A stretch of 14,852 nt of DNA, taken from contig JAFCZI010000014.1 of the NCBI GenBank assembly GCA_019314425.1, positions 1 through 14,852 on the forward strand, given 5' to 3'. The translations under genes were made by a program, and so were the position numbers. This stretch comes from Deltaproteobacteria bacterium (GTDB lineage Bacteria; Desulfobacterota; DSM-4660; Desulfatiglandales; Desulfatiglandaceae). Under the pieces are notes generated by a model, which was not told the origin of the DNA, ran no database searches, and saw nothing but the letters and a program-made list of their open reading frames with translations. Of this stretch, positions 6,319-7,242 are shown piece after piece; the first letter of the stretch is position 1, and the number at the start of each line of letters is the position of its first letter.

Positions 6319-7242
6319 ATGGAAAGGCATTTGCTTGTAACGATCAGTGAGAAGCACGACCACCTGTTCGGGGTTCGGTTTGTGGGGAATTTTTTTACCC
6401 GGAAGGACGAGATGAAGGTCACCCTCCTGTATCTGACGCCCAAGCCGCTGGGTCGTTTTGAGGCGGATTGCGAAACGGAACTCCGGATGAAGAAAACGGA
6501 AGCCACCGGGCGGAAAGCCTTGAATGAGGCAAAACGGGATTTTCTGAAACTGGGGTTCAATGAGGAACAGGTCGCACTCAAACTCAGGTCTCGCAGGCTC
6601 TCCAAGGTGAATGAAATTATTCAGGCGGGGTCGGAACTATCCGGTCTTCTGGGCCGGTTGCCCTCGCGCATGGGCTACCAGCCCACCATGGCTACGGAGC
6701 TGGCGGAGTTGGAAGAACGGATCTCCAGTACCCGTAGCGCTGCTATTACCTCCATTCAGGCGGTTTACGTGCCCGCCGACGACCTCACCGATCCTTCGGC
6801 GGTACACACCTTCAGCCACCTGTCTGCGTCTATTGTTCTTTCCCGAAAAAGGGCCGGGCAGGGATTCTATCCGGCCATTGATCCACTCCAATCCCGCTCC
6901 ATTATGCTTCAGCCCAGGATTCTGGGAGAACGTCACTACCAGGTGGCCAAGGAAGTGCGGAAAACCCTTGCCACCTACGAGGAGTTGAAAGACATCATTG
7001 CCATGCTGGGGATCGAAGAGCTTTCCCGGGAGGACCGAAAGACCGTTTACCGGGCGCGCCGGCTGGAACGGTTTTTTACCCAGCCCTTTTTTACCACCAC
7101 CCAGTTCACGGGCCTGGAAGGCAAACGGGTGGATATCGAGGACACTATCGATGGGTGCGAAAGAATTTTAAACGATGAATCCTCTGACCATCCCGAGGGG
7201 TCCCTGTACATGATCGGTGCTATCGGGGAGGCGAAACCTTGA
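6319..7242 (+). CDS. atpD: Chimera: universal-stress N-terminus fused to C-terminal part of N-ATPase beta subunit
   Basis: The frame encodes 307 aa. Residues 1 to about 100 are a Usp-family domain ([20 protein letters not shown]...) matching the pseudogene at 1060. From about 101 the sequence is the F1 beta C-terminal part: [29 protein letters not shown] (151-159), [11 protein letters not shown] (225-235), L-Y-M-I-G-A-I near the end. The beta half with the Walker A loop, catalytic Glu and Walker B is absent, so no ATP hydrolysis is possible. The join falls at I-Q-x-G-S-E, shared by both parents. GGGGGGGA precedes ATG 6319; ATG 6298 is possible but lacks this site. The gene heads an operon in N-ATPase order (D, C, Q, R, B). 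It is either a genuine deletion fusion or an assembly join. Confidence 0.85.

Follow-up and report, generated by a model that had tools for sequence, protein, structure and literature searches.

A usp–atpD fused reading frame as a probable deletion scar in an N-ATPase operon

According to two published accounts (PMC5376962, PMC11738941), the N-ATPase operon starts with beta and epsilon, followed by Q, R, a, c, b-delta, alpha and gamma, and N-ATPases accompany a second, F-type ATPase set. Like this operon, the N-type (alternate) F1Fo ATPase, the locus presented here runs from beta through epsilon, Q and R to a; its best-matching models are the alternate F1F0 ones (TIGR03305, TIGR03166, TIGR02230, TIGR03306 and TIGR03323), and the same genome also carries a separate F-type set. 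It differs in that the window, i.e. the whole stretch of 14,852 nucleotides that was analysed, lacks the front of beta, c, b-delta, alpha and the front of gamma, and the rest of gamma is frameshifted. A second relevant group is the two-domain universal stress proteins of the genus (PF00582), to which the first ~105 residues of the fused frame are 67–75% identical; in contrast to these proteins, the frame keeps only about one third, the remainder being beta subunit. Fusion pseudogenes left as deletion scars are a known kind in bacteria. The locus has in common with them a join at short homology, a damaged surrounding operon and a redundant function; nothing distinctive was found here, and the usp/atpD parent pair was seen nowhere else in the searches made.

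The fused frame comes from an uncultured bacterium related to a sulfate reducer and represented by a desulfobacterial MAG (G000) of 2,807,889 bases in 475 contigs, 80.22% complete with 5.19% contamination, of which the window is contig C272. It was compared with four congeners, G001, G002, G003 and G004, of which G001 is the nearest relative. The bins of G000 and G001 measure 2.8 and 2.2 Mb, as against 5.0–6.6 Mb.

The fused frame and its parents

Window positions 6319–7242 form an open frame of 307 codons, in which ~105 residues of universal-stress type give way to a portion of the beta subunit of an N-type ATPase. The in-frame fusion of usp and atpD proposed in an earlier note was thus recovered, with the frame open and both parents matched by similarity to genes of the congeners, as was the proposed ribosome site, a G-rich stretch lying directly before the ATG. 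Starting from another ATG in the same frame, at 6298, would lengthen it by 7 codons; the usp similarity begins with MERHL at 6319. The parts of the frame are as follows.

6319..6618, + strand: usp', front part of a usp gene (uspB), about 105 of 284 residues, 75% residue identity to the usp of G001 and G002
6619..6636, + strand: junction 1, with 7 exact common bases (6619–6625) and looser similarity to both parents until 6636
6626..7242, + strand: 'atpD, the N-ATPase beta gene without its front, 94% to G001 and 92% to G004; TIGR03305

Residues 1–107 are 75% identical to the usp product of G002, 75% to that of G001, 69% to that of G003 and 67% to that of G004, with E-values of 4.0e-42 or lower for three of the four and 2.1e-41 for G004. 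They also resemble the usp at 1060, as had been claimed for the first ~100 residues (68% over residues 1–81). The intact usp relatives match PF00582 with 54–57 bits (cut-off 24). The Usp part of the fused frame stops before the end of this domain, which is therefore incomplete, and a Pfam search at E up to 0.1 with the 100-residue Usp piece alone matched no family.

The beta part corresponds to residues 255–466 of the intact G001 beta (466 residues). Its identity is 94% to G001 (residues 97–307) and 92% to G004 (residues 96–305), these two closest betas being matched at E 1e-124 or better; against TIGR03305 it covers profile positions 241–449 of 449 with 383 bits, under the full-length cut-off of 752, and the match to the bovine chain 1bmf_D begins at residue 263. 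The sequence GGAGVGKT of the G001 and G004 betas, which we take to be the P-loop, lies before residue 255 and so outside the fused frame, and the half of a catalytic F1 beta that holds the beta-barrel and P-loop is not found there. The statement that the whole nucleotide-binding half is absent is correct in that nothing precedes approximately residue 255 of G001, but too sweeping in that PF00006 profile positions 114–213 of 213 are kept. The motif QAGSEVS, quoted for beta subunits in general, has to be corrected for the N-type beta here, which reads QAGSELS.

In the base-level alignment the window tracks the G001 usp to ~6616 and the atpD of G001 and G004 from ~6617. This agrees with the switch having been placed at I-Q-x-G-S-E (6619–6636), where IIQxGSE of usp coincides with FIQAGSE of beta. 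The bases ATTCAGG at 6619–6625 occur in the window, in the G001 usp and in the atpD of both G001 and G004. Seven or more shared bases arose at 0.0465% of random joins of the G001 usp and atpD (200,000 trials); the overlap was counted against these G001 genes, and the parents of G000 itself could share slightly more. Of the suggested deletion through microhomology between adjacent genes, the join at 7 shared bases (chance ~0.0005) is thereby supported, but the adjacency of usp and atpD is not.

The remaining operon and its surroundings

Beyond the fused frame, the operon continues in the order atpD'-C-Q-R-B'-'G.

7239..7625, + strand: atpC, N-ATPase epsilon, open; TIGR03166, 133.1 bits (cut-off 100.1)
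7618..7944, + strand: atpQ, open, in-frame stops absent; TIGR02230, 133.3 bits (cut-off 46.7)
7934..8236, + strand: atpR, open; PF12966 AtpR, 59.8 bits (cut-off 26), and TIGR03165, 54.5 bits (cut-off 55.5)
8220..8870, + strand: atpB', N-ATPase subunit a without its last few residues; TIGR03306, 320.3 bits (cut-off 302.1)
8868..8876, + strand: junction 2, atpB running in frame into the inside of atpG, from matches to G004 and the base-level view
8871..9394, + strand: 'atpG, back part of N-ATPase gamma, frameshifted near 9134, two matches in different frames

The subunits are nearest to alternate F1F0 models, which gives their N-type descent: TIGR03166, TIGR03306 and TIGR02230 are exceeded, while TIGR03305 and TIGR03323 are the best models for truncated products that remain below cut-off. 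A complete functional N-ATPase set is not found, with c, b-delta and alpha absent at the locus. The alignment of atpB' to G001 and G004 stops at ~8874, and the matches to G004 jump from L039:13709 (atpB) to L039:16739 (atpG), so that ~3.0 kb of the G004 operon has no counterpart here: the few residues that end atpB, together with atpE, atpF, atpA and the first part of atpG. Residues 113–206 of the G004 gamma match at 8862–9140 and residues 204–291 at 9130–9393, in frames separated by an alignment gap. The bases shared at junction 2 are poorly countable, since identity to the closest atpG parent, that of G004, is only 78%. Where a single fusion event had been envisaged, the fusion is present but the operon is broken further, at junction 2 and by the atpG frameshift. 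The stretch 8220–9465 of the window spans the atpB-into-atpG join. In the G001 N-ATPase operon, atpB and atpE are separated by an additional open frame (L038:3195–3584; 129 codons), which is absent from G004.

Open N-ATPase betas are present in G001, G003 and G004, the last of which keeps the full gene order D-C-Q-R-B-E-F-A-G; no N-type beta was found in G002. When G000 was queried with the full G001 beta and with alpha and gamma of G004, no N-type beta, alpha or gamma came up beyond the remnants in the window. The queries otherwise gave weaker relatives and an F-type set on contig C275, in which stops are absent.

C275 631-2010: F-type alpha, from the G004 alpha search
C275 2146-3015: F-type gamma, from the G004 gamma search
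C275 3066-4436: F-type beta, from the G001 beta search

Loss of the N-ATPase would be tolerable because this separate set remains. In a sample of 20 contigs of G000, 7 read N (17,061 of 127,717 bases); with the genome 80% complete, the missing atp pieces could therefore sit on unseen contigs.

The other genes of the window are the following.

1060..1550, + strand: uspA, a usp pseudogene belonging to the same family as uspB, with stops and frameshifts and its back half missing
3741-4706: L,D-transpeptidase, open, Pfam match
4884-6056: RtcB, open, Pfam match
9517-12201: CoA-ligase/acetyltransferase-type protein, open, 894 codons, Pfam match
12292..12742, − strand: the third usp of the window, a different one, with a frame disrupted by comparison with the G001 copy and PF00582 split over two frames
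12849-13301: Hsp20, open, Pfam match

The first 318 bases of uspA show 84% base identity to the G002 usp, and the gene follows a segment (window 1–53) similar to the final part of guaA, an arrangement also present in G002. Of the two PF00582 pieces of the third usp, one scores 21.4 bits, under the 24-bit cut-off, and the other 70.4 bits, with a 5-base gap relative to G001. As RtcB, the L,D-transpeptidase, the ligase and Hsp20 are open, the broken genes are unevenly spread, which counts against plain sequencing error. A DUF433 and DUF5615 pair, presumably toxin-antitoxin-like, occupies window 310–941, where it separates the end of guaA from the broken usp; in G002, guaA and usp nearly touch. 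Open frames of at least 150 codons cover 41% of window 1–5000 and 79–84% of the rest, and past the first 5 kb there is no unusual shortage of open-frame content. Open-frame cover is 0.689 in the window, 0.868 in 13 unmasked contigs of G000, 0.763 in 13 contigs of G001 and 0.854 in 15 of G002, and in those 13 contigs it shows no genome-wide decay of G000 relative to G001 and G002.

Taken on gene content and alignment, usp'-'atpD is very probably a deletion scar in a decaying, redundant accessory N-ATPase operon. A first deletion would have removed the back of usp and the front of atpD, with an in-frame join at the 7-base shared sequence; a second, larger one would have removed atpE, atpF, atpA and the front of atpG, joining atpB to atpG. 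If translated, the fused frame would give half a Usp domain and a beta fragment without beta-barrel, P-loop and catalytic residues. With the P-loop half of beta missing, and c, b, alpha and a complete gamma gone, the operon would provide neither a catalytic site nor an N-ATPase. Two cuts, a frameshift and two further broken usp genes are better accounted for by gene decay than by a single adaptive fusion. On the other side stand the in-frame state of both joins, for which the chance is 1 in 9, the incomplete and partly masked genome, whose unseen contigs could carry the missing pieces, and the ordinary open-frame content of the window past its first 5 kb.

A misjoin in assembly or binning at 6619–6636, of contigs from two strains or from distinct places of one genome, could produce the same frame, and both the state of the MAG (475 contigs, 80.22% complete, 5.19% contamination) and the lack of any other source for the fused protein speak for it. 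We regard such a chimera as improbable. The shared sequence amounts to only 7 exact bases, shorter than the usual assembly words; a like join follows 2.2 kb onward in the same operon; and the base composition of the window (0.515) agrees with that of 13 unmasked contigs sampled from the MAG (0.510). Furthermore, the gene block in front of uspB is the one that precedes usp in G001 too, the atp genes past the join retain their order and overlap, and the missing parts were not found elsewhere in the bin by the N-type beta, alpha and gamma searches. We infer that both joins reflect true deletions in the genome of the organism, with usp and atpD once lying near each other, and that the fusion is functionless.

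The former neighbourhood of usp and atpD

Gene order in the congeners makes a former adjacency of uspB and atpD plausible. The gene block at window 1631–4722 also precedes usp in contig C112 of G001 (L035:4490-1649), so that uspB is in a native place. The orthologous usp of G001 is cut by the end of C112 (codon 241), and the G001 atpD begins 134 bases into contig C100; as both contigs end where the join would be, the two genes may be adjacent in G001. The contig ends were considered as proof of adjacency and rejected: the 200 bases at each end of C112 and C100 have no 11-mer in common, nor can the tail of a usp be made out where C100 begins. In G004 the 10.6 kb upstream of atpD contain no usp of this profile. 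Adjacency was not found in a relative, and this too counts against the decay reading.

A wider survey covered 88 N-ATPase beta loci, 75 of them with at least 1.5 kb upstream (the pairs L038/L044, L039/L046 and L054/L167 being duplicates). A usp of this subfamily lies upstream of the N-ATPase at 0 of these 75, as judged with a Usp profile built from four sequences, which would miss distant Usp proteins. The earlier note had recommended looking for a usp directly upstream of a complete N-ATPase atpD. One such arrangement exists, in a Candidatus Desulfaltia MAG (L119:8127-10654), where a two-domain Usp stands 164 bases before a full-length N-ATPase atpD, but this Usp is a distant one, only 22–23% identical to uspB. 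Among the matches listed for 46 family genomes at E up to 1e-20, the window alone has usp and N-ATPase on one contig; with an intact usp as query, a further pair surfaced in G052, whose orthologous usp follows the N-ATPase gamma gene on the same strand, at a distance of ~6.7 kb downstream. Another Usp is found ~6.5 kb upstream of the N-ATPase in G052 and G018. At L172 and G052:C1:769840-783181, in a single-contig genome, Usp genes flank the N-ATPase operon within ~7 kb, the downstream one belonging to the uspB subfamily and the upstream one to another.

It could also be that usp and atpD were never neighbours, and that a fragment of the N-ATPase moved into usp by transposition or a larger rearrangement. 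The 75 upstream regions, with a single distant Usp among them, are in line with this, as are the different contigs on which usp and N-ATPase lie in G003 and G004, and uspA, which shows a second place for usp near guaA. We hold a rearrangement to be the less likely course, though one to be reckoned with, as two simple deletions suffice and need no donor site, and the ends of both G001 contigs at the would-be join allow adjacency there.

Constraint and possible function

Over 754 codons of five genes, the changes assignable to the G000 and G001 branches stand at amino-acid to synonymous ratios of 29:54 and 21:62, respectively (Fisher p 0.24), and codon changes without detectable relaxed constraint count against the decay reading. 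Out of 116 highly conserved columns of beta, 2 differ in the fragment, one of them in common with G001; in other homologues up to 4 differ. A conserved site that is F in 119 of 121 homologues and Y in 2 is S in the fused frame; the other conserved columns agree. Since the substitution pattern shows no relaxed constraint, the fusion would be recent or, less likely, still in use. The pattern fits a recent break, without proving lost constraint.

It is very improbable that the frame is a working gene under selection, for example for a Usp-headed protein that would bind F1 subunits and modulate the remaining ATPase. The frame is open, in phase and begins at the usp start, its beta part has no detectable relaxation, and atpC, atpQ, atpR and most of atpB are still open, all of which such a gene would explain. 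However, unrelaxed constraint is equally expected after a recent deletion, the Usp part ends before its domain does and alone matches no family, the catalytic beta residues are missing and its partners among the operon's subunits are broken. The fusion is also unique in the sets searched: no other copy was found in the best 120 of 8000 scored proteins, nor among 80 kept of at least 531 contig loci, where no match starts before query residue 63. No title in the literature searched concerned a fusion of the usp-atpD type. A sequence in G017 (C106:5406-5660), in a frame of 276 codons, is 65% identical to residues 96–180 only and is perhaps another broken N-ATPase beta. That usp'-'atpD and the open atpC, atpQ, atpR and atpB remnants form a new small regulator, in which the Usp-headed beta fragment would dock on the remaining F1 and damp it under stress, seems to us scarcely credible. 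The fused gene is most likely a dead remnant.

Beyond annotation the significance of an ordinary deletion scar is small. Automatic pipelines would label the fused frame as ATP synthase beta subunit, though it is incapable of being one. Within the genus, some members retain the N-ATPase operon and G002 shows no N-type beta; in this context the locus would be an example of a redundant N-ATPase operon in early decay, ahead of any substitution signal.
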